Under the pieces are notes generated by a model, which saw nothing but the letters and a program-made list of their open reading frames with translations, had not been told where the DNA came from and ran no database searches. Position numbers and translations under genes: made by a program. Below are positions 23,411-37,710 of a stretch of 64,000 nt of DNA, piece after piece; the stretch's first letter is position 1, and every line of letters begins with the position of its first letter. Source of the stretch: Oceanipulchritudo coccoides (GTDB lineage: Bacteria; Verrucomicrobiota; Verrucomicrobiia; Opitutales; Oceanipulchritudinaceae); NCBI RefSeq assembly GCF_010500615.1, contig NZ_JAAGNX010000002.1:300990-364989 (forward strand). The letters are read 5' to 3'.

Positions 23411-25258
23411 TTACAGCGGCGTGTAGCAGACCGTATTGGAAAGCAGGATCATGATGAAGATCAGACACATCGTCATGGGGCCAAGATAAATACGCCCGGT
23501 CATCCGAAAAAAGTAGCGGTTGAAGTAAGGCAGAATAAACATGATCGGGACGACCGCAAACAGCAGGTTGATGTAGAGCCATCCATCCGTCCAGTAGACG
23601 GTTCCGGTCACCGCAAAGGTGACGTATTGGACAAGGACAATAAAGAACAAGCCGAGTGAGTTGGCGATGCCCGCCCGTAACATGCTTTTCCATTCGGGCT
23701 CTCCCTCAATGCGCATGGCGCCGTTGACCCGCAATGAATTTGAGAGGAAGAAAATAAAGAACATTGGCACGTACATCAGCATCAGGAGGATCAGGACGGG
23801 CTGGAAGACCCGCACGCCCATGAACATGAAGCGGTAGTCGACATGCAGGAAATAATACAAGGCAAAGAGAAGAAAGTAAAAGGAGGAGAAAATGGAAAGG
23901 GCGAGCAGGGCTGTCCGCTTCAGCTCCATCCAGTTGGTCTTTGCCCCCCATAACCCTGGGTGAATACCATGCTTCTTTCCGTGAAAACGGTAACTCAGGT
24001 AGAAGATGATGAATCCGATTATCCCGTTGAAGACCGCCCAGAGCATGACCCCGTTGTTCATCCGTTGCGGGAAAAACCATGTCATCTCCCGGCTGGATGC
24101 CGCCACAAACAACTTCTTGGACAGCTCAGTCATCGGAATGTATGAAAAACAGGCGATCAAGGCGCCGAGGATAAAGAGACCCCAAAAGAGAATTTTGCCT
24201 TTCCCGCGCGGTACCGGCTGGGCTTCGGGAAGCGGGTGTACAAGCACCCGGAAATACGGAACCTTTGCCAGCAGCAGTTGCCCAAGGGGAACAATGGCGA
24301 TGAAAGCGGCAACCAGCGATACAAGGCTGAGGATTTCCTTCCAGTACCACACCTGGTTCCGGCTTGTGATGGCTGGGTCAAGGTCGAATACTTTCTCGAA
24401 ATACTCGATCTGGTTCGCTGTCGCTTCACGCATGTATGGCTGAAAGGGATGCAGGATACGTTCGTTGTGGATGACCCGCAGGGTTCGGTCCTCCGCATTA
24501 CCATAGTATTTTCCCAGCTCCACTTCCCGAATTGGTTCATCTCCGGGCAGAAGGGCCGAATTGACGGTCCGCAAGGCTTCCGGGGCAACCCGCATGTCCC
24601 CGTTTTTAAGGTCATTCCGGTAGGCCCCCTCGTCATAATAGGCATAGCTAACACCGACGTTCGAACGAACATCTGCGAGGACATCATCCCTCAGGGTCAG
24701 TACGTATCCAGAAACGAATACAGAATGGAGCTTGCTGGGTCTTCCTGTCCGAATCGATTCTCTACCAAAGAAGTTTGCTCCCCGGATGGCTGCGTTACCG
24801 CCGGCTGAATGACCCGTCGCACCAATGCGCTCCTTATCAATATAATTCAGATTGGATGTCTCAGCCGCGTAGTCCACCAGGGCAAACATACCATATCCCT
24901 CGGTTGTCGCAGCCCGACGGCTCATCGATGAGCTTGATCCGCCCTGCGCGTAGGGGTCAATCGATATGGCCACGATCCCCCGCCGGGACAACTCGATGGC
25001 AATGTTAGACAAGGCCTCCTTCGAGCGCTGAAAACCCGGTACCACGACAACCAGCGGGGCGGGGTTGTCTTTCGTCGCCGTGTCCGGCTTGAATAAATCC
25101 GCTACCAGCCATTGCCCGTTTTGCGTCGGAAGTTTGATCTCCATCACGTCAACCCGTCCCCAGGACTGCTGGATCCCAGAGGTGATGAGGCTCGCGAGAA
25201 TCACCATCCCGACACATATGGCCAGGAGATGGCGGCTCATGGGACCGGATTCTTTCAT
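23411..25258 (-). CDS. Alpha/beta hydrolase fused to a multi-span membrane domain
   Basis: 615 residues. An N-terminal membrane anchor or signal (about 9-27) leads to an extracytoplasmic alpha/beta hydrolase domain. That domain has VVVVPGFQRSKE near 70-81 and the nucleophile elbow GHSAGG at Ser151. From about residue 305 onward there are eight or nine hydrophobic spans with no family I recognise. The architecture parallels the hydrolase-DcuC fusion encoded at 26941-29226. It is divergently transcribed from the M14 peptidase gene. A GTATAC-type operator lies about 30 bases upstream of its start, so GntR control is likely. Substrate unknown; an ester or amide is expected from the fold. Confidence 0.85.
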   Translation of the reverse strand: MKESGPMSRHLLAICVGMVILASLITSGIQQSWGRVDVMEIKLPTQNGQWLVADLFKPDTATKDNPAPLVVVVPGFQRSKEALSNIAIELSRRGIVAISIDPYAQGGSSSSMSRRAATTEGYGMFALVDYAAETSNLNYIDKERIGATGHSAGGNAAIRGANFFGRESIRTGRPSKLHSVFVSGYVLTLRDDVLADVRSNVGVSYAYYDEGAYRNDLKNGDMRVAPEALRTVNSALLPGDEPIREVELGKYYGNAEDRTLRVIHNERILHPFQPYMREATANQIEYFEKVFDLDPAITSRNQVWYWKEILSLVSLVAAFIAIVPLGQLLLAKVPYFRVLVHPLPEAQPVPRGKGKILFWGLFILGALIACFSYIPMTELSKKLFVAASSREMTWFFPQRMNNGVMLWAVFNGIIGFIIFYLSYRFHGKKHGIHPGLWGAKTNWMELKRTALLALSIFSSFYFLLFALYYFLHVDYRFMFMGVRVFQPVLILLMLMYVPMFFIFFLSNSLRVNGAMRIEGEPEWKSMLRAGIANSLGLFFIVLVQYVTFAVTGTVYWTDGWLYINLLFAVVPIMFILPYFNRYFFRMTGRIYLGPMTMCLIFIMILLSNTVCYTPL

Positions 25259-25285: not shown

Positions 25286-25295
25286 ATGTATACAA
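25286..25295. promoter_or_regulatory. Putative GntR operator upstream of the hydrolase-membrane gene
   Basis: ATGTATACAA (TTGTATACAT on the minus strand), with core palindrome TGTATACA at 25287-25294. It lies about 28 bases upstream of the start codon of the minus-strand hydrolase-membrane gene. It matches the other three sites found near members of the same gene block. Confidence 0.65.
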
Positions 25296-25358
25296 TCTCT
25301 ATCGAACAAGGGTGTTTAGGGCTGTCAATACCCCATTTTTGGTTGACCTCAACCTGCC

Positions 25359-25368
25359 TTGTATACAA
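25359..25368. promoter_or_regulatory. Putative GntR operator overlapping the M14 peptidase promoter
   Basis: TTGTATACAA, a perfect 10-bp palindrome ending 9 bases before the M14 start codon. TACAAT within it (25363-25368) could serve as a -10 box, with a TTGACC at about 25342-25347. Binding of a repressor here would block transcription directly. FCD-type GntR proteins are known to use operators with a GTATAC core. Confidence 0.7.
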
Positions 25369-25377
25369 TCGCCTCAT

Positions 25378-27000
25378 ATGAAGGCGTTTTTAGAATTAAT
25401 TAAAGGCCTGCCCCTGTGTGTCTTCCCGGGTCTGCTTTTTGGTTACACGGCTCCGGGACCGGAGGTAGAGGACGGATATTACCGTGATCCGTCCGGGCTT
25501 ACAGAGCGCTGGTTTCCCAAGCCGGAAAAGGAACTGCGGACACCCGGCGCGAAAACGGGTCGCTGGTCGACCGTCGAGGAAGTTTATGCTGCCTTGGACG
25601 AGTTGGCCCTTGAGCGGGAGGACCTGGAGGTACGCGAAGTAGGGGAGAGCCTGTTGGGGGTGCCCATCAGGGCGCTATTTCAGACAAGTCCTAGCCCTGA
25701 CGCCGTGACGGTTTTGGTGCAGGCGCGGGTACACGGGAATGAGCCCGCCTCGACAGAAGGGGCACTTGAGCTGGCTTATGAGTTGGCGCGAGGGGACCTC
25801 GCAGAGTTGGACATGAATATCATCATCCTGCCGGTCCTGAATCCCGAGGGGGCACGCGAAATGCGCCGACGGACCGGGACAGATATTGATCCAAACCGCG
25901 ATTACATCCTGCACAAAAGCGGATCCATCCGGGCGGTTTACCGCCTGATGCGGGAATACGATCCTGAAGTGGTCATGGACATGCATGAGCACGACGCCTA
26001 CGCGTGGCCGTATGACCTGATGACGATTGGCCCGAACAACCCCAACATTCCGGAGGACATCCTGTCATTCACTAATGGGGTCGTGATTGGAGGGATGAAA
26101 AAGGCCTTTGATGCGGCTGGACTACATCTGGGACCTTATCGCCTCCTCGACTTTCAGGAAGATGGTGTGCGGGTTCGTGAATCGGCCACAACCTTTGTGA
26201 GTGAGAAGAATGCCTTGGCGATGGCTGGACGCATCAGCCTGCTGACGGAAGGCAGGGGAATTGGTCTTGGAACCCAACATTTTCACAGGCGCACCTTCAC
26301 GCAATACACGGCGGCCCGCTCGGTGCTGGAGACCGTGGCGGAGAATCAGGATGAAATCAGGCGAATTGTCGCGGAGGCGAGGAATACAATTACATCAGGC
26401 AAGGATGACTGGGTTCTTCGGGTTGACCCGGTGAAGGTGCCCTCAACCCATGAACTGGTGAACGCTGAAACCTTCGGGACGGAGGCGGTTGAGACGACTT
26501 ATTGGGAGCGAACCAAGGGGACCGTGGTCGATATCCAGAAAAGGCCAGCTGCCTATGTCCTGCACGCAAGCGAGGCCGCATTGGCGGATCGGCTGCGTCG
26601 ATTCGGACTCGAGATGACAACCCTGAATAAAGAAACAGCCATCACGGTCGAGACCCTAAGCGTGGATACTTTCAATCCGGGAAGTGCCGTTCTGTACGGG
26701 GGTGAATTACTGCGAAGCGACGGGGCACCTGTACGACCGGCGGTCCTGCGCAACCATGAAATATCGATGGATGTTAAGACGCAAAACCGGATGTTTCCCC
26801 AAGGTAGTTGGATTGTCAGTACAGCCCAACCCAACGCACTTTACCTGATCACCCTCGAACCTCGCTGCCTGTCTGGATTTGCCTCGCTGGGATTCTGGGG
26901 GAACCAACTTGATTCAGGTTTTGAGTTTCCTGTATACAGGCTAATGGATCAGGGCGTGCACAATGACCATGACAATCACGCCTCCGATCATCGGGACTGA
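25378..27000 (+). CDS. M14 family zinc carboxypeptidase, exported
   Basis: About 540 residues from the ATG at 25378, where the sequence begins MKAFLELIKGLPLCVFPGLL, a signal peptide. An upstream in-frame start at 25270 would place two operator sites inside the gene. Zinc ligands fit HGNEP (HxxE) and DMHEHD, with a substrate-binding Arg in DPNRDY and the catalytic-type Glu in LLTEGRG. M14 enzymes cut C-terminal residues, or gamma-D-glutamyl bonds in some members. There is no clear ribosome site and the likely -10 box is very close, so the message may be leaderless. The 3' end overlaps the convergent transporter gene by 60 bases. Confidence 0.88.
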   Translation: MKAFLELIKGLPLCVFPGLLFGYTAPGPEVEDGYYRDPSGLTERWFPKPEKELRTPGAKTGRWSTVEEVYAALDELALEREDLEVREVGESLLGVPIRALFQTSPSPDAVTVLVQARVHGNEPASTEGALELAYELARGDLAELDMNIIILPVLNPEGAREMRRRTGTDIDPNRDYILHKSGSIRAVYRLMREYDPEVVMDMHEHDAYAWPYDLMTIGPNNPNIPEDILSFTNGVVIGGMKKAFDAAGLHLGPYRLLDFQEDGVRVRESATTFVSEKNALAMAGRISLLTEGRGIGLGTQHFHRRTFTQYTAARSVLETVAENQDEIRRIVAEARNTITSGKDDWVLRVDPVKVPSTHELVNAETFGTEAVETTYWERTKGTVVDIQKRPAAYVLHASEAALADRLRRFGLEMTTLNKETAITVETLSVDTFNPGSAVLYGGELLRSDGAPVRPAVLRNHEISMDVKTQNRMFPQGSWIVSTAQPNALYLITLEPRCLSGFASLGFWGNQLDSGFEFPVYRLMDQGVHNDHDNHASDHRD

Positions 27001-29226
27001 AGTTCGCTTCACAATGGCGAACGGGCTGACATTGGCCGCGCTGGAAACAGCAATGATCACGCCTGCGACAGGGGAGAAGCTGCGGAATAAGCCCGCTGCC
27101 AGCTGAGCAGGGAGCATCATTGTAACGGTGCTCACGCCCATTGGTGAGGCAATACCGGGAATCATGTTCGCGAAACTGAACAGGGCGGCGTTGCCACTTC
27201 CTGTAACGAGTGTTGTAAACCCGATTAATAAAACGAGTGCGATCACCATCGCGATACTTCCCATGCCGGCGTTCTGGACCATGCCAATTAACCCGTCAAT
27301 GAGGCCGGTCGCCTTGACCCCGGTGGCGAAAGTTTCGGCAGCCACAATCAGCGTCACAACCTTGGCCAGAATGTCGCCCATGCCCTTGAAAAAGTGAACG
27401 ATCCCGGCAAGGGCCTCCCTGAGGCTTCGTTTGCGAATGGCTTCGCAGCCCATGCTGAAGAAGAGGCTGATCAACATGGCCGTCACAACATCCACCTGGA
27501 TTGATTTAACAACAAGTGGACTGAACACCAGAAGCAGCACCAAGGGAAGGATCGGGAGAAAAGCATAGAAGCCGGGCACGTTCTCGTTGGGAACCTCGTC
27601 TTGAAGACCTGCCAAGGCTTGCTCCGGCTCTTCCGGCAAGCGTTTATCGCAAAACCGCTGCCAAAGAAAATGCAGAAGGGCGACAACGGGAATCACGAAC
27701 ACTGCGACTGGAAGCTGGTAACGCACAAAATAAACCACGGGTTCCATTCCGCTTACACTGGCAGCCACATTCGAAGCTCCGGAAGCGGGACCGAGATCAA
27801 GGCAGGCTGTCGTCCCGATAACCGCTGCCACGGAGACAGGTCGCAGGCCAAGCTCGACAAGCGTCGGGTACATCGCGACGAGGAGCAGCATGGCCAAGCC
27901 AGCCGCGCTCGGGACAAAGATATTCAAGGTTTGTCCAACGGCGTAGGCAAATGCCAGGAGAAGGTACGGGTTCTTCAGGTTGGAAAGGGGGCGCACTGAT
28001 AATTTGACCAAGGCCGTGGAAGCGGAAATGGACGACATGTATCGCGCGAACCCGCCTGCGGCCATGATGATCAGCCCGATCTTTGCAAGGCGCGTGGAGA
28101 AGCTCTCCTTCACTATGGCAAAGAGGTCGAATCCAAACCATCCGGTCGGAGAATGTTCATAAGCCGTAAAAGGATTTCCGGTGATCCGGGCAGAGACATA
28201 AGCAAGAATCAACAGGGCAAAACCGGATATGAAAAGGGTGGCATGAGTCTGGTAGCGCCTGACGACCATAAACACTGTAAGGGCAATAAAAAGAATGGCG
28301 ATCAGCTGTGTAACGCGCTCCAGGGGATGAGGAACGGGCTCCATTTTATTGGCCATGAAACGAGCCGCTGCCGGGGCCATGCGGTCGCCTTCATGCGCTA
28401 CACCCGGAACAACTTGTAGTTGCCAGTTAAATACAGTTCCAAGTTTCTCTGCCAGTTCCTTACCGGCATTGTAGAAAACCTGGCCACGCTCAAAACGGTG
28501 GGCACCCTGTAACATTGCCTCCGGTGCGCGGCGCAAGCTACTGTGCATGGGATCATTGTCCCTGTCGCCGAGCAGGACCAGCAGATTGGAAGCAAGGTAG
28601 GCCGGCATGTCCTTTTCAGAAATTCCTGTCCCCTTGAATCCGTAGGGCCAACTCTCCGTGAAAGATGGAAAGGTATACCAGCCTGCATTTGCGGCCACGG
28701 CCAGCAAGAGCTGTTCATCCGGTGCGAAGGCAATCTTCCGGTGAAGAAACTGGCTTCCGGCACTATGACCAAAAGCAAAGTATCCATTGGCCCGTGTGTC
28801 ACCGCTTGTATGCCTGAGATAGTCGAATACTTCTCCGGGGACCTTGTAGCTCCATTCCGATTCCGGCTTCCGGGTCAAGTCCTCCTCGGAAAGGAAAACA
28901 TTTCCCAAATTGTACCCGACGGTATTGGGATAGTCCTCCTCACTGAACAAAGGGGCGATGACAAAGAGCCCGTGTTTATCCGCCAGCTCGATCCATCCAT
29001 CCCGGTATTCACCAGGATTACGATTCATCCCGTGGAAGACCATCACCGGGGGGTTGCCCGGGTTATAATTATCCGACTTCACATAGTGGACAACAACCTC
29101 CTTGCCGTTTCTTTCACTTGTGAAGCTGAATGAACCGGTTCCATCGGGAAGCACCGCCTCAAGAATGACCGACAGGAATAACCCAAATAGAGTCAGGAGC
29201 CAGAAGACGAGTTGTCGTGGAATCAT
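26941..29226 (-). CDS. Alpha/beta hydrolase-DcuC family carrier fusion
   Basis: 761 residues in two parts. Residues 1-24 are a membrane anchor. Residues about 28-295 are an alpha/beta hydrolase domain with VMVFHGMNRN, GHSAG (Ser155), LGDRDND and GVAHEGD (His278), a full catalytic triad pattern. Residues about 303-761 form a multi-span carrier of the DcuC/C4-dicarboxylate anaerobic carrier type (ASGASNVAAS, GSGNAALFSFANM and the final SSAANVSPFAIVKRTSVP). The arrangement suggests that an ester or amide is cut in the periplasm and the product is imported by the same polypeptide. Its start overlaps the M20 peptidase stop (TGATG), so the two are co-translated. Confidence 0.9.
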   Translation of the reverse strand: MIPRQLVFWLLTLFGLFLSVILEAVLPDGTGSFSFTSERNGKEVVVHYVKSDNYNPGNPPVMVFHGMNRNPGEYRDGWIELADKHGLFVIAPLFSEEDYPNTVGYNLGNVFLSEEDLTRKPESEWSYKVPGEVFDYLRHTSGDTRANGYFAFGHSAGSQFLHRKIAFAPDEQLLLAVAANAGWYTFPSFTESWPYGFKGTGISEKDMPAYLASNLLVLLGDRDNDPMHSSLRRAPEAMLQGAHRFERGQVFYNAGKELAEKLGTVFNWQLQVVPGVAHEGDRMAPAAARFMANKMEPVPHPLERVTQLIAILFIALTVFMVVRRYQTHATLFISGFALLILAYVSARITGNPFTAYEHSPTGWFGFDLFAIVKESFSTRLAKIGLIIMAAGGFARYMSSISASTALVKLSVRPLSNLKNPYLLLAFAYAVGQTLNIFVPSAAGLAMLLLVAMYPTLVELGLRPVSVAAVIGTTACLDLGPASGASNVAASVSGMEPVVYFVRYQLPVAVFVIPVVALLHFLWQRFCDKRLPEEPEQALAGLQDEVPNENVPGFYAFLPILPLVLLLVFSPLVVKSIQVDVVTAMLISLFFSMGCEAIRKRSLREALAGIVHFFKGMGDILAKVVTLIVAAETFATGVKATGLIDGLIGMVQNAGMGSIAMVIALVLLIGFTTLVTGSGNAALFSFANMIPGIASPMGVSTVTMMLPAQLAAGLFRSFSPVAGVIIAVSSAANVSPFAIVKRTSVPMIGGVIVMVIVHALIH

Positions 29227-30359
29227 CAGGTTTGTCTGTTTCCGATTGCTTCGACAAAATCCCTGAAGATGGACATACGCTCGTTCAGCTCAGCCATCTC
29301 CAAGTACTCGCGATCCGTATGATAGCCGCCGCCCACAGGCCCCAAACCACATAGGGTAGGAATGTTGAATGCGCTTGCATATGATGCATCCGATCCTCCA
29401 CCCGAGAATGTCCATTTGAGTTGAACGCCGTATTTTTTCCCGATCTCGTTCATGGATTCGATAAGTTCATCTCCCCGTGCGGTGGGCCGCATCGGGGGCC
29501 GGGTGATTCCGCCCGACACATCAATGGTAACCTTTGGATCCGTTGGAGCCTGTCCCATTTCTTCAATAGTTTTCGCAAGTCGAACAGCATCCTCCATGTG
29601 AACCACCCGCACATCCAAACGGCATTCAGCAAAATCTGGAACAGCGTTAATGGAGACGCCACCCTTGACAATACCCGGGTTCAGATTGATTCCCCGCTTT
29701 GGGTCATCCAGCTCCCGCAGCCTTAAGATCATGCGCGCCATTTCTGTGACAGCGCAGTTTCCGTTTTCAGGATCCACACCCGAGTGCGCGCTCTTTCCGT
29801 GAAATTGAATGGTGTAACGGAGAATTCCCTTACGCTGTCGAACACAGGAGCCGTCCGCTCGTGCTGGCTCAGTCGTCACCACTACCTTTGCCTGCTTGGA
29901 TTTCTCTTCCAGAAACGGCCGAATTGTCGGGCAGCTGAGTTCGTGTTCCCCGTTAAAAATAATCCCAATATTTCCATTCAGCCTTTTCTCGTGTTCAAGC
30001 TGTTCAATGGAATGCAACGCCATCAGGCATCCCGCCTTCATGTCGGCCACTCCGGGTCCCATGTAACGCTTGTCCTTTATTGAGAAGGGCCGAGCCTCAG
30101 CGGTTTTGTCAGGAAAGACAGTATCGACGTGGGAAATAATCAACAGGTCGAGATCATTTGCATCGCCATTCCATGTGAACAAGGTTTTGCCGTAGTGATC
30201 TGGCTGATACGCGACAAAGCGCGTCTGCCATCCAAGTTGTTTAAACCGGTCTTCAAACCAGTCAGAAACCCGGTTCACGCCATCAATGACCGTTGAGCCG
30301 GAATCTATATTCACAAGGAACTTCAGTTCTTCTTCAAATGCTTTCAGATCAAACTTCAT
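29226..30359 (-). CDS. M20 family peptidase, glutamate carboxypeptidase (CPG2)-like
   Basis: 377 residues from the ATG at 30359 (an upstream reading of 26 residues is unlikely). Co-catalytic metal motifs: SHVDTVFP, GPGVADMKAG, a Glu in TTEPARADGS and the late His in GGGYHTDREY. The KSAHSGVDPE block of the dimerisation domain is also present. At the position of the general base, CPG2 has DEE and this protein reads EHE (in FNGEHELS), so the catalytic Glu is replaced by His while the metal Glu is kept. CPG2 removes C-terminal glutamate. No signal peptide is visible. It lies between the TonB receptor (108 bases upstream) and the hydrolase-carrier gene. Confidence 0.88.
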   Translation of the reverse strand: MKFDLKAFEEELKFLVNIDSGSTVIDGVNRVSDWFEDRFKQLGWQTRFVAYQPDHYGKTLFTWNGDANDLDLLIISHVDTVFPDKTAEARPFSIKDKRYMGPGVADMKAGCLMALHSIEQLEHEKRLNGNIGIIFNGEHELSCPTIRPFLEEKSKQAKVVVTTEPARADGSCVRQRKGILRYTIQFHGKSAHSGVDPENGNCAVTEMARMILRLRELDDPKRGINLNPGIVKGGVSINAVPDFAECRLDVRVVHMEDAVRLAKTIEEMGQAPTDPKVTIDVSGGITRPPMRPTARGDELIESMNEIGKKYGVQLKWTFSGGGSDASYASAFNIPTLCGLGPVGGGYHTDREYLEMAELNERMSIFRDFVEAIGNRQT

Positions 30360-30467
30360 TTTCCTGTCAAGATGGACAAGGTTTGCGATTGGAGGGGGCC
30401 GGCGCCCGACCTCGGCCGGGCACCGGATTCTCCACAATAATCACATCAACTCTCCCACGCCCCCTTT

Positions 30468-33400
30468 TTAGAAGGAGTACTTCAGGTCAAGATAGTAATA
30501 CCGTTCCCGGTTGCTGTGCAGGGACGGTTCATAACCAAAGGACTCATCCGGATTGAAGGATGGATCCTCGTCGAAGAGGTTTCGGATACCGAAGGAAACG
30601 GCCAGGCCGTCCAGCGATCCGTCGTTGAAGCGGTAGCCCATGCGAATGCTGGTGCGCATGTAATCGTCGATCACCCACTCGCGTCCATCATCGCCATCCA
30701 CATCGTTATCAACTGTCTCACTGATGTAATTGACGGTGACGCTGGCTGACCAGTTGTCTTTGCGCCAGCTAAGGGTGGACTTGCCGCGGAAGCGCGGGTT
30801 GATCTCGTCCTTGATCTGGCTAACCGGGCTGTCCCCTGCAACTTCAATGTCATCGAAGGATTCAAGGTAACTTCCCTCAGCCGTCAGGCGGAAGCGACCA
30901 AAGGACGTTTCCGGGAAGGCGTATTCCAAGCCGAAATCCCAGCCGGAAATCTCCCGCGCCGCTTCATTGACGAAGGGGTTGATAACCCGCGAGATCGCAC
31001 CAGCCGGTGCATATCCAAGGCCTGTTGCAAGGTCGATTTGCTCCTGTGTGATGGGATCACGCTCAACGCGCGGATCACCGATGACGACATCACCGGGGGA
31101 ATAATCTGCCGGGTTGGCGGAGAGGGCATCAAGGATGTCCTGGTCAGCATCGATGATGTCAGCTGTCCCGATAGTCCCGATACGGTCTGTGATCTCAATT
31201 TCCCAATAATCGGCCGTCAATGTAAGGCCCTCGATGTAGGGTACACGCCAGACAATACCAAATGTCTTGGTTTTGGATTCTTCCGGTCCCAGACCAAAGT
31301 TTCCACCCCGAAGGTCAGCCAGTTGTTCCGATCCGTCGTTGGCAGCGTTATCCGGATCCCACTGGAGCCGGTAGTCGTCAAGGATACCGGTGTTGAAGCG
31401 CTGGATCGGCTTTGTCAGGATGGACAAGTTCGGCGCGGTAAAGCCTTGTGCCTGGCTTGTGCGCAGGAGCAGATCCGGGCTGAGGTACCACATGACCCCA
31501 ACTTTGGGTTTAGTCAGGTCGCCAAAGTCGCTGTAGTCTTCCCAGCGGCCGGCAAGTTGCACTTCGAGGCGATGGAAGAGGGGCGTCCTGTTTGCCTCAC
31601 CGACAATGGGGACCAGAAGCTCAGCATAAGCGCCGATAACTTCGCGATCAGAGTCCGTATCCTCTGTCGGGCTGACACCAATGATATCGGAAGTGCCCTG
31701 GAAGGAGTCGTCAAAGCGGATTGTCCCGTCGATTCGCGGATCGCGGTCGTCCATGTAAGTTTCTTCACGGGCTTCAATCCCAAGGGCAATACCGACCGGG
31801 TTGCCAAAGAGTTCGGTCACCTCGGGGTTGTTGGCCCGCAGGTCGTAGCTCAGCAATTCTGTTTCTGCTGTCCGCGATACTTGAATGATGAGATCCTCAA
31901 AATCCTCCCGGTTATTTGCCCCCGGTCCCGAAAAGACATTCAGGGCTGCAGGTGTGTCATCCGCAAGGGCTCCTGACAGTCCGGTCTTCGACAAGCGGTT
32001 GGAGGAGGTGTCGGTGGCTTCGTTCAAGTTGTAGCGGATACCGGTTTCCCAGTACCAGTTGTCGTATGCCTTACCTTTCAACCCGATCGTGTAGAGGTAG
32101 CTGTCTGTCTCGACATCGACCAGTCTGGGTCCGGCCCATTCTGTCCGCCAGCCTTCGAGGACAATCCCAATTCCTTCATCCGGGAGCGGGTCGCCGTTTT
32201 GCAAGGTGATTCCCGAAAGGCGGTTCGGATTAGTACGTCCGTCGGCAAAGGTTACCGGCCCGAATGGATTGTAGTAATTCTGTGCCGGAATGACGATGTC
32301 GTCACTGGTGCCAATGACCACGGGGGCACGCTGCTGCCACGTATCAGCATGGTAATACCCAATCTCTGCAAAGAGCTTCAATGTATCGGAAAACTCATGG
32401 TGAAGGGTGGCGAAAAAGTTAGTCCGCTCCACCTCTGAGGTAAGCGTCCGCCAGGGAGCAAAGTCATATCGCTCGTCGCGGGGCAGGGCATCGTCGTCAA
32501 TGTTGGTTCCATCAGCCAGCACGGCTGTGGTTCCCGGAAGTCCCGGTGCATTGATGTGGAATTCGCCGGTGCCGTCAGTAATTTCGACCCCGTTTTGTGA
32601 GAGTTCATCCCGGCTGCCGGGAAGGTCTGTCTCAAAGCGTGCATACACACTACCTGAGCTGACATTGATGATGGACACATCGCCTCGCCAGTTTTCATCG
32701 ACCAAAGGCCGCTTGTCGCCAGCGCGGGCGTACCATCGATCCGTCGCGATAATTGGATCCCGCTCAAAGTAGCTGAGAAACAATGACAGGTTGGTCTTCC
32801 CTTCATTGAAGTCGAATCCACCGGTATAGGTGTAGAGCTGCTCGGTGTAGTCCCCGCTACCGTCCTGTCCATAGCGGAGCCGGACTTCATTGCCGAGAAA
32901 GTTGGTATCAAGAACCGTATTGACCACCCCGGCTGAGGCGTCCGTACCATAAATGGCGGAAGCACCGTCACGGAGAACGTCAATCCGCTCAATCAGCCCT
33001 GCCGGCATCACGTTTGCGTTGACCAGCACGCTGGGTGCCTGACCCACCGTTTGGTTGAGCGGGTGCGGTGCCAGGCGACGGCCATTCATGAGGACGAGGG
33101 TCTGTCCCGGGCCGGCGCCGCGCAGGTTGATCGAGGTGACATCGCCACGGGCGTCATTGGGACCGTCCTCCGTCTCGTTGAATTCCGGGGATCCAGTAAA
33201 AACAAGTTCTGAAAATATCTCCCCCGGGGAAATGAATCCATCGGACTCAATCTCATTCATTTCCAAAATGGAAACGGGAAGTCCTGATTCCTGGTCAAAC
33301 CGTGTAATCGCGGAGCCCAATACAGTCACTGGCTCGAGCTCGAATACATCTTCATCCTCTTCTGCTTGGCCGCTGGCGGCGTTGAAGGGAAGCAGCAGAC

Positions 33401-33476
33401 CACAGAGCCCGCTTACTATTATAGTGCGAAGCGGCAACCAGTTGGATGCGCTCCCGGTTAAGGGTGTCTTTTTCAT
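30468..33476 (-). CDS. TonB-dependent outer-membrane receptor
   Basis: 1002 residues. Signal peptide (about 1-38), then a TonB-box-like acidic/hydrophobic start (EDVFELEPVTVLGS) and the plug domain to about residue 170 (INLRGAGPGQTLVLMNGRRLA; IERIDVLRDGASAIYGTDASAGVVN, described by LRDGASAIYG). A long beta-barrel follows and ends in an aromatic Phe (LDLKYSF), as required for outer-membrane assembly. No SusD-like partner is present. It should import a larger compound into the periplasm. An AAGGA ribosome site precedes the ATG. A GTATAC operator lies about 36 bases upstream. Confidence 0.93.
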   Translation of the reverse strand: MKKTPLTGSASNWLPLRTIIVSGLCGLLLPFNAASGQAEEDEDVFELEPVTVLGSAITRFDQESGLPVSILEMNEIESDGFISPGEIFSELVFTGSPEFNETEDGPNDARGDVTSINLRGAGPGQTLVLMNGRRLAPHPLNQTVGQAPSVLVNANVMPAGLIERIDVLRDGASAIYGTDASAGVVNTVLDTNFLGNEVRLRYGQDGSGDYTEQLYTYTGGFDFNEGKTNLSLFLSYFERDPIIATDRWYARAGDKRPLVDENWRGDVSIINVSSGSVYARFETDLPGSRDELSQNGVEITDGTGEFHINAPGLPGTTAVLADGTNIDDDALPRDERYDFAPWRTLTSEVERTNFFATLHHEFSDTLKLFAEIGYYHADTWQQRAPVVIGTSDDIVIPAQNYYNPFGPVTFADGRTNPNRLSGITLQNGDPLPDEGIGIVLEGWRTEWAGPRLVDVETDSYLYTIGLKGKAYDNWYWETGIRYNLNEATDTSSNRLSKTGLSGALADDTPAALNVFSGPGANNREDFEDLIIQVSRTAETELLSYDLRANNPEVTELFGNPVGIALGIEAREETYMDDRDPRIDGTIRFDDSFQGTSDIIGVSPTEDTDSDREVIGAYAELLVPIVGEANRTPLFHRLEVQLAGRWEDYSDFGDLTKPKVGVMWYLSPDLLLRTSQAQGFTAPNLSILTKPIQRFNTGILDDYRLQWDPDNAANDGSEQLADLRGGNFGLGPEESKTKTFGIVWRVPYIEGLTLTADYWEIEITDRIGTIGTADIIDADQDILDALSANPADYSPGDVVIGDPRVERDPITQEQIDLATGLGYAPAGAISRVINPFVNEAAREISGWDFGLEYAFPETSFGRFRLTAEGSYLESFDDIEVAGDSPVSQIKDEINPRFRGKSTLSWRKDNWSASVTVNYISETVDNDVDGDDGREWVIDDYMRTSIRMGYRFNDGSLDGLAVSFGIRNLFDEDPSFNPDESFGYEPSLHSNRERYYYLDLKYSF

Positions 33477-33511
33477 ATCTATTTCCTTGGTAGTGGTTGA
33501 GTTGTGAAAGA

Positions 33512-33521
33512 TTGTATACGA
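33512..33521. promoter_or_regulatory. Putative GntR operator at the TonB receptor promoter
   Basis: TTGTATACGA, overlapping the likely -10 region of the minus-strand TonB receptor gene, about 36 bases before its start codon. It has the same GTATAC core as the sites at 25286, 25359 and 33645. Confidence 0.68.
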
Positions 33522-33644
33522 AAACAGGCTAAACGGCTTGTCAAACCCATATTGAAAGAGGGTTTTTCCTTTAAGCGGGTCTTATTCTGTGAATATTGGG
33601 CGGGTAAGCGTCTTATTACAAGCAACTTAACCCAAAATTAGTAA

Positions 33645-33654
33645 TCGTATACGA
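33645..33654. promoter_or_regulatory. Putative GntR operator upstream of the GntR gene
   Basis: TCGTATACGA, a perfect 10-bp palindrome about 92 bases before the GntR start codon, just upstream of a TTGACA. It suggests autoregulation of the gntR-ggt-carrier unit. Confidence 0.65.
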
Positions 33655-33746: not shown

Positions 33747-34445
33747 ATGCATCAAAGGAAGCCATCGCTGATAGAAATCCCGGAAGACATGCCGGGGAGC
33801 CGAAACTTGCGGGACCAGATCTATGGACAAATCAAGCGTCGCATTCTCAGTGGCCGGATCGCTCCTGGGGAGCATCTCCGGGAGAAGGCGCTCTGTGAGG
33901 AATTGGAGGTTTCGAGGACGCCCTTGCGGGAGGCCTTGAACCGTCTGGGCAATGAGGACCTGGTCATTTTCCGTCCTCATTGCGGGTATTTGGCGGCACC
34001 AATCAGTGCGGAGGAGGCGAGGCGCCTGCAGGAGCTCCGCAGAATAGTTGAGTCCAAAGTGGCTGCGCTGGCGGCAGTCAAGGCGAGCGAGGAAGACATC
34101 AAGCTGTTTCGGGCAGCAGCGGAAATGCCAGAGATCAAGGCTGGGGACGATGCGTCCTTTGTCGCTTTCTGTCAGGCGAATGCCCGTTTCCATCTCCTCT
34201 TGGCGCAATGCGTGGACAACCATTTTCTGGAACAGATTGTCATGTCGTCCCTTGATCAATACCAGCGACCGGCTTATCTGGGAATCGGGCGGGTGACGGA
34301 TCACAAGAAGCCGAGCAAGTGCCACCATGACATTGTGGATGCGATCGAGGCCCGTGATCCGACAAAAGCGGAAGTGGTCATGTGCGGTCATGTGATTGGG
34401 GGCAGTGAACGAATTATTGCCGCCCTTATTGAGGCGGGCTACTAG
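33747..34445 (+). CDS. GntR family regulator, FadR/FCD type
   Basis: DNA-binding regulator of 232 residues. The N-terminal winged helix (about 17-85) includes LRDQIYGQIKRRILSGRIAPGEHLRE (key blocks GRIAPGEHL and VSRTPLREALNRL). The C-terminal all-helical FCD ligand-binding domain contains metal-ligand-type His residues in ANARFHLLLAQ and KCHHDIVDAI. It lies just upstream of the gamma-glutamyltransferase and DASS carrier genes in the same orientation (15 and 13-base gaps). Four GTATAC palindromes nearby fit the operator form of this subfamily. Ligand unknown; probably a carboxylate or amino acid made by the regulon. Confidence 0.93.
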   Translation: MHQRKPSLIEIPEDMPGSRNLRDQIYGQIKRRILSGRIAPGEHLREKALCEELEVSRTPLREALNRLGNEDLVIFRPHCGYLAAPISAEEARRLQELRRIVESKVAALAAVKASEEDIKLFRAAAEMPEIKAGDDASFVAFCQANARFHLLLAQCVDNHFLEQIVMSSLDQYQRPAYLGIGRVTDHKKPSKCHHDIVDAIEARDPTKAEVVMCGHVIGGSERIIAALIEAGY

Positions 34446-34460: not shown

Positions 34461-36185
34461 ATGGACATGAAGCAGGGAGAATTTATCCGAGTACGGGCTG
34501 TTCACCTGATCTGTGCAGTATGCCTCATTGTCTCAACGGCCGGATGTGCTTCCACCGAATCAATTGTCCCGGTGATGGGCGATCAGGGGATGGTTGTTGC
34601 CGGCCATCCCGAGGCAGCTGAGATTGGGCTCTCGGTACTAAAGTCGGGTGGTAACGCAATGGATGCGGCGGTCGCTGCCTCTTTCGCACTGGGCGTCGCG
34701 GAGCCCTACGGATCCGGGATTGGCGGAAAGTGTGTCATTGTTTATTTCGAGGCCGAAAGCGGAGAGACCTGGTTTTTTGAGGGTCTGGACGAATCCGGAG
34801 CGGAACTGGATGTGGAGGCCTTTGTGGAAGCCGGCTCAGACGCGCGGGCAGAAGGTGCCTTGGGAGTGGGCGTGCCCGGTCTGGTCGCGACGATGGAGGC
34901 AGCCCATGAAAAGCTGGGAAGTCGTCCGTGGGCGGAATTGCTCGAGCCGTCAATCCGTTTGGCACGGGACGGGTTTACGGTGGTTCCCGGAATGAAAGTC
35001 TTTTTCGAGCGACGCATTGAGCGAATTCAGTCACATCCGGAATGTGCGCGCCTGTACATGCCTGGTGGGGCTGTGCCGGAGGAGGGGACTCGCCTTCCCA
35101 ATCCCGATTTGGCCACTACGATGGAGCACATCGCGGCCAAGGGCCGTCAGGGATTTTATGAGGGAAGGGTTGCGGAGTTGATAGTGAATGAGCTGCAATC
35201 GAAAGGAAGCTCACTCACTTTGTCCGATTTTAAACACTACAAAGCCCAGGTCTCCAAGCCCTTGACGGCCGACTGGGAAGGCTACGAGTTGATGACCGCC
35301 ACGCCCCCGGTCTCGGGCGGAGCCACTGTCCTGCTTGCCTTGAAAGTTCTGGAGGGGCACTCATGGCCGGATAGTGAACCCTTCCGTACGGCTAACAATA
35401 TCGACCATTGGGGCCGGGCCATGCGACATGTGTATCCAGTTATTCAGGACACTATTGCCGATGTCCCGGAGGCGATGGATTCGTGGGAAAAACTGGTTGA
35501 TCCGGAAGCGGTCGCCCAATTGCGCAAGGCAGCATTGAAAACGGATTTGGCAGGGATATCTGAACAAGACGGCCTTGAAGCGGCTGAGCCGCTCGCCAGC
35601 GGCCCGGGCGGCTGGACCACACACTTTGTGGTTGCTGACAGCAAGGGCAATGTGGCCTCTGTGACGCAATCCCTCAGCCACCACTTTGGGTCCGGTGTCA
35701 TTGCGCCCGGCACAGGGGTCATCCTCAACAACTCCCTGAATAATTTCAGCACCTTCAATCCGGAAGGGGTGAATTATGCCGCCCCACAGAAACGTGCCCG
35801 AAGCACAATTGCGCCGATGATTGTTTTAAAGGATGGCCGGCCGGTCCTGGCGATCGGCCTGCCTGGTGGACAACGAATCCCGACCACGCTCATTCAAGTC
35901 CTTATTGATCATTTGCAATTCGGAAGCGGGTTGGGGGAGGCGATTAGTTCCCCGCGCTTCCACCTCTTGAGGAGCTGGTCCGCTGAACCGGATTCGGACC
36001 TTTTCCAGATGGAGAAAGACACCTCTCTGGAGCTATCCACTCATCTCCGTGAAAAGGGTTGGCAGGTTGAAGTTTCGGACGACACCGAATTCTTTGGCGG
36101 CGTGACCGGTCTGGAAATTTCCGGGGAGGGCAAACTAACCGGCTGGGCGGATTACCGCCGTACCAATCACGCGGTGGGGTATTGA
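34461..36185 (+). CDS. ggt: Gamma-glutamyltransferase, lipoprotein
   Basis: 574 residues. The N-terminus has a lipobox (IVSTAGCAS, Cys about residue 29), so the enzyme is anchored as a lipoprotein on the outside of the inner membrane or in the outer membrane. The self-cleaving enzyme family is shown by GNAMDAAVAASFALGVAEP and by the nucleophile Thr386 in GGWTTHFVVADSKGN, which becomes residue 1 of the small subunit. The LPGGQRIPTT block is also present. It hydrolyses or transfers gamma-glutamyl groups, for example from glutathione or gamma-glutamyl peptides. It lies between the GntR regulator and a dicarboxylate carrier gene. In-frame ATGs at 34461 and 34467 are both possible starts. Confidence 0.93.
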   Translation: MDMKQGEFIRVRAVHLICAVCLIVSTAGCASTESIVPVMGDQGMVVAGHPEAAEIGLSVLKSGGNAMDAAVAASFALGVAEPYGSGIGGKCVIVYFEAESGETWFFEGLDESGAELDVEAFVEAGSDARAEGALGVGVPGLVATMEAAHEKLGSRPWAELLEPSIRLARDGFTVVPGMKVFFERRIERIQSHPECARLYMPGGAVPEEGTRLPNPDLATTMEHIAAKGRQGFYEGRVAELIVNELQSKGSSLTLSDFKHYKAQVSKPLTADWEGYELMTATPPVSGGATVLLALKVLEGHSWPDSEPFRTANNIDHWGRAMRHVYPVIQDTIADVPEAMDSWEKLVDPEAVAQLRKAALKTDLAGISEQDGLEAAEPLASGPGGWTTHFVVADSKGNVASVTQSLSHHFGSGVIAPGTGVILNNSLNNFSTFNPEGVNYAAPQKRARSTIAPMIVLKDGRPVLAIGLPGGQRIPTTLIQVLIDHLQFGSGLGEAISSPRFHLLRSWSAEPDSDLFQMEKDTSLELSTHLREKGWQVEVSDDTEFFGGVTGLEISGEGKLTGWADYRRTNHAVGY

Positions 36186-36198
36186 GGAGGAAGAAAGT

Positions 36199-37710
36199 AT
36201 GTCGAATTTGCCATGGAAACGAATCGGTCTGGTGTTGGCCCTCACGGTGTTTGCGGGGCTTTTCCTATTTTATAATCCGGTTCCGGATCGCCCCGAAGTG
36301 GGAAAAATGGCGGCTATTGCCGCCTTCATGGCAATCCTCTGGATTACCGAGGCCATTCCCCTCGCAGCCACCGCATTGATGCCGATTGTCCTCTTTCCGC
36401 TCGCTGGAATTCTCGACAGCGGTTCGATCGCCAAGGACTACGTGAATTCCATTATATTCCTCTTCATTGGTGGCTTTCTTATTGCCCTCTCAATGGAGCG
36501 CTGGAACCTCCACCGGCGGATTGCCCTCAATATTATCTACGTTATCGGACGGCGGGCGGACTTGCTGATTCTCGGCTTCATGGTCGCCTGTGGATTCCTT
36601 TCGATGTGGATATCCAACACCGCCACCGCCGTGATGATGTTGCCTGTGGGGCTGGCAGTGGTCTCCAAGATGGAAGAGGAGTTCGGGAAGGAACGGTCGC
36701 ATCCACTCACCCTCGCCTTGATGCTGGGCATTGCCTACGGGTGTACGATCGGCGGGGTCTCCACGCTGGTCGGAACACCCCCAAACCTGGCCTTCATCCG
36801 GATAATCCAGGAACTGTTCCCGGAGGCACCGCCCATCACGTTTGGAAACTGGATCATAATGGGCGTTCCCTATTCAATTGTCCTCTTGCTCACGACATGG
36901 TTCCTCCTCACGCACGTGCTTTGCCGTTTTGACAAATCCCTGCGACTGGACCGCTCCATCATCCGGTCTGAACTGAAGCAGCTCGGCCCCATGCGCTTTG
37001 AGGAAAAAGCTGTTTTAGTGGTTTTTGCCTGCACCGTGTTTCTCTGGACCTTTCGCCGCGATCTGGACCTCGGCATCTTCACTTTACCCGGTTGGTCCAG
37101 CCTGTGGGCTGGCTTTGACCGGATTGACGACGGGACCATTGCCATTGCCATGGCCCTGGTCCTGTTCCTGGTCCCCGCCCGCCAACGTGAAAAGGCCAAC
37201 CGAATCCTCGATACCGATGTTTTTGGCCGGCTCCCATGGGGCATTATCCTCCTCTTCGGGGGGGGCTTCGCGCTTGCCTCCGGATTTGCCTCAAGCGGGC
37301 TGTCCCTGCATATCGGTGAATCCTTCCGCGCCCTCGGGAATATTCCCATTCCCATCCTCCTGCTGGTCATCTGCCTCAGCGTCACCTTTCTCACGGAACT
37401 CACCTCCAATGTGGCTACCATTACCATGCTCCTGCCCATCCTCGTCTCATGGGCCGCCAGTATGGGCGTGCATCCACTCCTCTTCGCCATCCCCGCCACC
37501 ATTTCGGCCTCCATGGCCTTCATGATGCCGGTTGCCACGCCCCCCAATGCCGTTGTCTTCGGCAGCCAGCGGATCCGCATCATTGAAATGGCGCGAACCG
37601 GTATTGTCCTCAACCTCTTTGCCGTCGGCCTCACCCTCCTCGCCGTCTACATCTTCTTCCCCGCTGTCACCGGTGCCGCCTTTGGCGATTTTCCCAGCTG
37701 GGCCAAGTAA
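36199..37710 (+). CDS. DASS (SLC13) family Na+/dicarboxylate symporter
   Basis: Inner-membrane anion carrier of 503 residues with about 12 hydrophobic segments. It has the two SNT motifs of the family in the forms ISNTATAVMMLPVG (near residue 138) and LTSNVATITMLLPI (near 397), plus the GTPPNLAFI block. Members carry C4-dicarboxylates, citrate or related anions with Na+. A strong GAGGAGG ribosome site (36184-36190) precedes the ATG. It is the last protein gene of the gntR-ggt unit. Its product is expected to take up a carboxylate released outside. Confidence 0.93.
   Translation: MSNLPWKRIGLVLALTVFAGLFLFYNPVPDRPEVGKMAAIAAFMAILWITEAIPLAATALMPIVLFPLAGILDSGSIAKDYVNSIIFLFIGGFLIALSMERWNLHRRIALNIIYVIGRRADLLILGFMVACGFLSMWISNTATAVMMLPVGLAVVSKMEEEFGKERSHPLTLALMLGIAYGCTIGGVSTLVGTPPNLAFIRIIQELFPEAPPITFGNWIIMGVPYSIVLLLTTWFLLTHVLCRFDKSLRLDRSIIRSELKQLGPMRFEEKAVLVVFACTVFLWTFRRDLDLGIFTLPGWSSLWAGFDRIDDGTIAIAMALVLFLVPARQREKANRILDTDVFGRLPWGIILLFGGGFALASGFASSGLSLHIGESFRALGNIPIPILLLVICLSVTFLTELTSNVATITMLLPILVSWAASMGVHPLLFAIPATISASMAFMMPVATPPNAVVFGSQRIRIIEMARTGIVLNLFAVGLTLLAVYIFFPAVTGAAFGDFPSWAK

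Follow-up and report, generated by a model that had tools for sequence, protein, structure and literature searches.

A VanR-group GntR-FCD regulator and putative GTATAC operators at a putative acidic-peptide cluster of Oceanipulchritudo coccoides

The regulator, its palindromes and the genes around them

The window analysed here is a 64,000-nucleotide stretch of Oceanipulchritudo coccoides DNA (contig NZ_JAAGNX010000002.1, positions 300,990 to 364,989; coordinates below count from its first letter). It contains a gene cluster with a GntR-type transcriptional regulator of the FCD subfamily and four palindromes with a GTATAC core, which are considered here as the operators of that regulator. The regulator (33747 to 34445, plus strand) has an N-terminal GntR winged helix-turn-helix domain (PF00392, 1.3e-18) and a C-terminal FCD domain (PF07729, 2.6e-22), both above cut-off, and its recognition helix is SRTPLREALNRL. 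An AlphaFold2 model (mean predicted local distance difference test score 89.7) has six effector-domain helices, not seven (88-112, 115-125, 135-155, 159-178, 187-201 and 205-229), which is the number found in the VanR group. In a Foldseek search with this model the first row by E-value was Atu1419/VanR, while the Brucella protein 7u5q and others gave higher template-modelling scores. The putative metal-binding residues of the effector domain, as in the VanR group, are present: H149 and H193 are invariant and H215 is nearly so in 34 proteins, and N145, H149, H193 and H215 are all invariant among 6 near relatives.

The original prediction placed four GTATAC palindromes at 25286, 25359, 33512 and 33645, and all four are present letter for letter. 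Operator 1 (ATGTATACAA, 25286 to 25295) is centred 32 base pairs (bp) upstream of the start codon of an alpha/beta-hydrolase gene. Operator 2 (TTGTATACAA, 25359 to 25368), 73 bp from operator 1, is centred 14 bp upstream of the likely start codon of an M14 carboxypeptidase gene, so that the pair lies between the likely starts of these two divergent genes. Operator 3 (TTGTATACGA, 33512 to 33521) is centred 40 bp upstream of the start codon of a TonB-receptor gene, and operator 4 (TCGTATACGA, 33645 to 33654), 133 bp from operator 3, is centred 97 bp upstream of that of the regulator. The strict form TYGTATACRA is exact in three of the four, operator 1 having one mismatch. The GTATAC core occurs eight times in the window (2.54 copies expected; none of 100 shuffles reached eight), and the remaining four copies (6635, 26932, 28673 and 46256) are within open reading frames (ORFs). 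The claim that the palindromes lie only at gene starts therefore holds for the TYGTATACRA-like form but not for the bare core. The intergenic placement of operators 1 and 2 calls for some caution since a mechanically defined ORF from TTG 25270 spans both; the likely start of the M14 gene is ATG 25378, judged by eye from the signal-peptide-like N terminus that follows. A further perfect 10-bp palindrome with the same core, CTGTATACAG (26930 to 26939), lies where the convergent M14 and DcuC-fusion genes overlap and is probably a coincidence, though it is within the cluster.

Downstream of the regulator by 15 bp is a gamma-glutamyltranspeptidase gene (34461 to 36185, plus strand; TIGR00066 over cut-off) that is probably co-transcribed with it, and a DASS-family sodium-coupled anion symporter of the dicarboxylate type (36199 to 37710, plus strand; TIGR00785 over cut-off) probably belongs to the same operon. 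Divergent from the regulator, on the minus strand, are a TonB-dependent outer-membrane receptor (30468 to 33476; PF00593 and PF07715), an M20 peptidase (29226 to 30353) and a fusion of an alpha/beta-hydrolase-like N-terminal part with a DcuC-family C4-dicarboxylate carrier (26941 to 29226; PF03606 at residues 307-756, NF037994 over cut-off). The M20 peptidase is nearest to the glutamate carboxypeptidase subfamily, at 240.9 bits under its cut-off of 349; its start at 30353 was chosen by hand, and the family searches used the mechanical ORF, which extends to 30437. The N-terminal part of the fusion has no Pfam hit of its own and matches separate ORFs of 290-304 amino acids (aa) at L178, L179 and L180. 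The M14 zinc carboxypeptidase (25378 to 27000, plus strand; PF00246, 1e-10) is probably secreted and its gene is convergent with that of the DcuC fusion. The alpha/beta hydrolase (23411 to 25258, minus strand) matches the PETase-like family PF12740 just over cut-off (1.3e-6) and is an operon member in two relatives.

Distribution of the operator within the genome and among relatives

The genome (3,520,043 bases in 52 contigs) was scanned for the motif, with the same pattern written backwards and counted genome-wide as the control. The strict form TYGTATACRA occurs in five places (reversed control, one). Three are window operators and the other two fall within ORFs of 601 and 664 aa, at a depth of more than 700 bases; the scan thus places strict sites outside ORFs at the cluster only. 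The looser form TNGTATACNA was found 13 times versus 12 for its control, and TYGTATACRA with one mismatch permitted 175 times versus 148, indicating that selectivity resides only in the strict form, that is, in the TY..RA flanks. By our own arithmetic the chance of at least three of five random sites falling in the 14.3-kilobase (kb) cluster is about 7e-7, a post hoc figure because the window itself suggested the motif, a limitation that does not apply to the comparison with other genomes.

Relatives of the regulator were sought in 372 genomes of the order, including that of the window, and at E-values up to 1e-25 the search returned 21 loci in 20 genomes. The recognition helix divides them into 11 loci with SRTP, as in the regulator of the window, and a sister clade of 10 with SR[AT]S. 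For the count of upstream sites, one SRTP locus (G364) was dropped as its contig ends at the gene, and a Bryobacterales locus (L075, SRTP) was added, the only locus above 40% identity (42%) in a separate contig scan. Of these 11 SRTP loci, 9 have at least one strict site in the 450 bp upstream of the regulator, versus 0 of the 10 SR[AT]S loci. The palindrome is thus conserved with the regulator, and in the closest relatives it occurs in the same divergent region between TonB receptor and GntR genes. One of the two exceptions is the Bryobacterales locus. In the other, G092, the genome has one strict site only; it immediately precedes a TonB-receptor ORF belonging to a same-strand gene run that ends in the regulator gene. 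On contig C89 of the dropped genome a strict site is followed, 66 bases on, by a stretch with 78% identity to NhaC of G231, where the NhaC gene is the divergent neighbour of the regulator; a presumed contig join would place this site at the cluster. In a three-way alignment of the intergenic regions, operator 3 and one site of G352 align as the identical 14-mer GATTGTATACGAAA, operator 4 aligns with no site in the others, and beyond the palindromes the remainder is too divergent for conserved DNA to be read.

The ten SRTP genomes contain 60 strict sites, 19 at regulator clusters and 41 away from them. Three of the cluster sites are in the genome of the window; the nine other genomes have 55 strict sites, 16 at clusters (that of G364 included) and 39 elsewhere. 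Every one of the 41 non-cluster sites lies inside a mechanical ORF of at least 88 aa, and in three cases the mechanical start is no more than 100 bases away. Applied to the 19 cluster sites, the same rule puts seven inside ORFs and 12 outside, so that, with no hand judgement, the contrast is 12/19 versus 0/41. Five of the seven (operator 2, two sites in G338 and one each in G043 and G009) fall no more than 110 bases into ORFs whose mechanical starts are probably too early, and the other two are in wrong-way overlapping ORFs in two contigs (G314 and G364). G231 and G314 each have one strict site in all, the one at the regulator. A chance origin of the sites was ruled out on the rarity of the strict motif genome-wide and the restriction of its non-ORF copies to the clusters. 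Two genomes have an excess of TYGTATACRA over the reversed control (20 versus 1 in G352, 16 versus 4 in G338); their copies away from the cluster are all in mechanical ORFs and mostly read TCGTATACGA, and the excess perhaps reflects codon usage.

The contig scan also gave 80 mainly distant FCD loci (best identity 42%), 79 of them with SRTPLREA and none a close named orthologue, and these loci were used as a control. Within 350 bp upstream, GTATAC is present at 21 of the 80 and TGTATACA at 12, whereas the highest counts for 15 other palindromes were 13 and 2.

GTATAC is a short, simple palindrome that other protein families could read, and a transcription factor other than the GntR protein might therefore occupy these sites. 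This is very improbable, as the search of the genome found no FCD protein but the regulator and only two GntR-type helix-turn-helix proteins including it, and as the site co-occurs with an SRTP-type regulator across ten genomes and its strict form is absent at the SR[AT]S relatives. With a single FCD protein the assignment of site to regulator is nearly unambiguous. The same genome counts rule out the other GntR protein as the reader.

A similar palindrome that is longer by one central base, T[TC]GTCWGAC[AG]A, lies within 350 bp upstream of the regulator in four of the ten SR[AT]S loci (L067, L069, L070 and L071, in G105, G095, G114 and G082). It was absent from that interval in five others, and in G126 (G126:C4:132267) it is about 585 bp upstream. 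This variant is not confined genome-wide, with 9-13 sites in each of the five genomes that have it upstream of the regulator versus 4-15 for the control. According to PMC4494728, position 40 of the helix-turn-helix domain is mostly Pro or Ser and correlates with the site, Ser preferring and Pro avoiding a G/C pair at site positions 6/14. Counted from Table 1 of that paper (Glu34 = 27), position 40 is Pro59 in the regulator. A G/C pair occupies the equivalent place in TCGTATACGA and TTGTATACGA, and in this respect the window departs in part from the Pro trend. Since the Pro/Ser split is a single branch of the tree, one event and not ten, the joint shift of helix and operator is at most suggestive.

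The distal hydrolase and carboxypeptidase genes

The original prediction extended control by the regulator to two transcription units 8 kb away, those of the hydrolase and the M14 carboxypeptidase. In G352, the TonB receptor, M20 peptidase, DcuC and, last, hydrolase genes follow one another on one strand from the region shared with the divergent regulator, with the hydrolase-like and carrier parts of DcuC as two ORFs. In G231, too, the hydrolase gene shares a strand with the operon that diverges from the regulator, and it follows a different TonB receptor (30%). In both genomes the hydrolase gene is inside the operon and no separate site accompanies it. The M14 gene of the window sits between the DcuC and hydrolase genes, convergent with the former and divergent from the latter. 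Distal sites within a cluster are not unique to the window, for in G312 the second of two strict sites is about 10 kb from the regulator. It is flanked by a gene whose product is 46% identical to a hydroxyaspartate-aldolase-like protein of G338 and, divergently, by an ORF of 167 aa followed by a gamma-glutamyltransferase homologue (36% identical to that of the window).

It is unlikely that only operators 3 and 4 function and that operators 1 and 2 are chance or relic sites, the hydrolase and M14 genes being controlled otherwise. Operator 1 does deviate from the strict motif at one position. A hydrolase hit was obtained in 23 other genomes, and the loci of 19 were covered (G231, G352 and 17 outside the regulator hit list); in the 1.5-kb fetched flanks the strict site was found at 0 of the 17 (one has GTATAC with other flanks), so control of the hydrolase by this regulator is not universal. 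Against these points, two sites lie within 73 bp between divergent starts in a genome with only five strict sites, the hydrolase is within the regulated operon in two relatives, and G312 has a comparable distal site. The M14 gene would belong to the regulon by virtue of its site and position. Its product matches proteins in only 2 of 371 other genomes (E up to 1e-20; 27-29% identity).

Control of all these genes by the regulator, as originally predicted, is supported by its status as the only FCD protein, the sites of its relatives, the confinement of other strict sites to ORFs and the operon membership of the hydrolase in two genomes. Very probably, one regulator switches a peptide-scavenging cluster that includes two transcription units 8 kb away, via four sites. 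A tentative proposal, rated somewhat below even odds, is that the content of the regulon was kept while the operon broke up, with a fresh operator pair putting the hydrolase and M14 genes under the same repressor; a tetramer might, in the way proposed for Atu1419, bridge the sites of a pair, and possibly both pairs 8.15 kb apart, and the operator of the family would have changed in parallel, SRTP members using TTGTA-TACAA and part of the SR[AT]S clade TTGTC-W-GACAA. A literature search on operon splitting of this kind found no paper with a narrow query requiring all terms together.

Mode of control, known systems and significance

These observations suggest, with a probability of roughly 85%, that a VanR-group FCD GntR repressor controls four transcription units via GTATAC operators, for the uptake and cleavage of acidic peptides. 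Computation shows where the sites lie, how they are distributed genome-wide, that they are conserved with the regulator and that the hydrolase is an operon member elsewhere; binding, repression, ligand and substrate are inferred. A regulator dimer would read (A)T[TC]GTATAC[AG]A(T) through Arg57 of the recognition helix. It would repress its own gene with those of the gamma-glutamyltranspeptidase and DASS symporter, the divergent operon of TonB receptor, M20 peptidase and DcuC fusion, and, as two further units at a distance of 8 kb, the hydrolase and M14 carboxypeptidase genes, which diverge from each other. A carboxylate ligand, probably a breakdown product of acidic peptides, may occupy the metal-type pocket of the FCD domain so that the regulator leaves the DNA, which would jointly induce uptake and cleavage of acidic peptides of the gamma-glutamyl or beta-aspartyl type.

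Among the closest known counterparts is Atu1419, a VanR-group FCD repressor of hydroxycinnamate degradation in Agrobacterium fabrum (PDB 6za3 and 6z74). As described in PMC7797058, this tetrameric repressor binds ATGTATACAT, present in two copies 190 bp apart in a divergent region; the palindromes extend over the -10 boxes of two genes, with Arg45 as the residue that recognises the guanine at position 3. The two regulators have in common the FCD GntR fold, six C-terminal helices (predicted in the regulator of the window), the SRTP helix, a 10-bp palindrome with a GTATAC core and paired sites in a divergent intergenic region, here 73 and 133 bp apart. The Atu1419 contacts Glu34, Arg45, Thr46 and Arg49 correspond to E46, R57, T58 and R61 in a gap-free alignment. 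The proteins differ in sequence (about 25% identity), in target genes (peptide genes here, hydroxycinnamate genes there), in the flanks of the palindrome (T[TC]..[AG]A here, AT..AT there) and in the second divergent pair 8 kb away. PmiR of Pseudomonas aeruginosa (PDB 7xp0/7xp1), with the same fold, is the best phmmer match among solved structures (3.5e-18, query residues 20-224), at 29% identity in its Foldseek row. Suvorova et al. (2015; PMC4494728) reconstructed FadR-subfamily regulons by comparative genomics. In their account such regulons have TKGT/ACMA palindromes, with a 2-nucleotide GT-AC spacing in several groups, and divergons with double sites each near its own operon ('separate sites'), an arrangement like that of operators 1-3; some half-sites here are TCGT or ATGT, outside TKGT. 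The statement that FCD proteins often bind TnGTATACnA-like operators is thus right in substance by PMC7797058 and PMC4494728, although the typical GT-AC spacing of the FadR subfamily is three bases and not two.

Operators 1, 2 and 3 have TTGAC hexamers at 30, 13 and 20 bases upstream of their TATAC, the last being a minus-strand TTGACA. Site positions are consistent with repression for these three of the four operators, since their placement relative to the start codons and hexamers fits blocking of transcription start. Several observations weigh against the proposed repressor and its regulon. Promoter scans found no consensus sigma-70 promoter in either intergenic region, so that promoter overlap rests on the TTGAC hexamers, and in the relatives G043p, G231, G312 and G338 no such hexamer is near the sites. 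Operator 4, 97 bp from the regulator start and upstream of a TTGACA, misfits simple occlusion; it may serve autoregulation or pairing. In several genomes the start codons of cluster genes are hand assignments, there is no close homologue with which the M14 gene could be compared, the Bryobacterales locus lacks a strict site upstream of its regulator, and Gly66 at the wing tip of Atu1419 is not conserved, being His78 here. In addition, CitO, an FCD protein, activates with citrate bound (PMC4746285). By analogy with CitO, the regulator could bind all four sites and mainly activate, or do both, with structural genes up and itself repressed; the TTGACA downstream of operator 4 could then be the -35 box of the regulator gene. 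Such activation is improbable, as operators 1-3 lie on the downstream side of the TTGAC hexamers and close to the start codons, where they would block rather than help RNA polymerase, and as Atu1419, which has the same type of site, is described as a repressor.

Related clusters add relatives of Asparaginase_2/beta-aspartyl-peptidase and of aspartate ammonia-lyase, NhaC antiporters, a GltP/DctA-like symporter, an aminotransferase, a DAO-type oxidoreductase and a hydroxy-D-aspartate-aldolase-like protein, several of these family assignments scoring below NCBIfam cut-offs. The common theme of the clusters is acidic amino acids in gamma-, beta- or D-linkage. In G009 (L056:12475-14307) an operator precedes a cyclic-nucleotide-binding-like domain (27.3 bits, narrowly missing the Pfam cut-off of 27.5) fused to an aspartate ammonia-lyase-like enzyme.

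A literature search joining GntR with TTGTATACAA found no paper. This kind of control is already known from Atu1419/VanR operators, and the regulon itself is a well-supported new example of the FCD/VanR type. The TonB receptor, DcuC-hydrolase fusion, PETase-like hydrolase and M14 carboxypeptidase are thereby given one task, probably the scavenging of acidic iso-peptides. The regulon is compact and nearly closed: a single regulator of this class would serve about eight genes through four sites, and every strict site elsewhere in the genome is inside an ORF. This makes it easy to test. The SRTP and SR[AT]S relatives offer a natural comparison of one residue (Pro59 or Ser) and one spacer base, through which to test how a single helix residue and half-site spacing set operator specificity in the FCD family.

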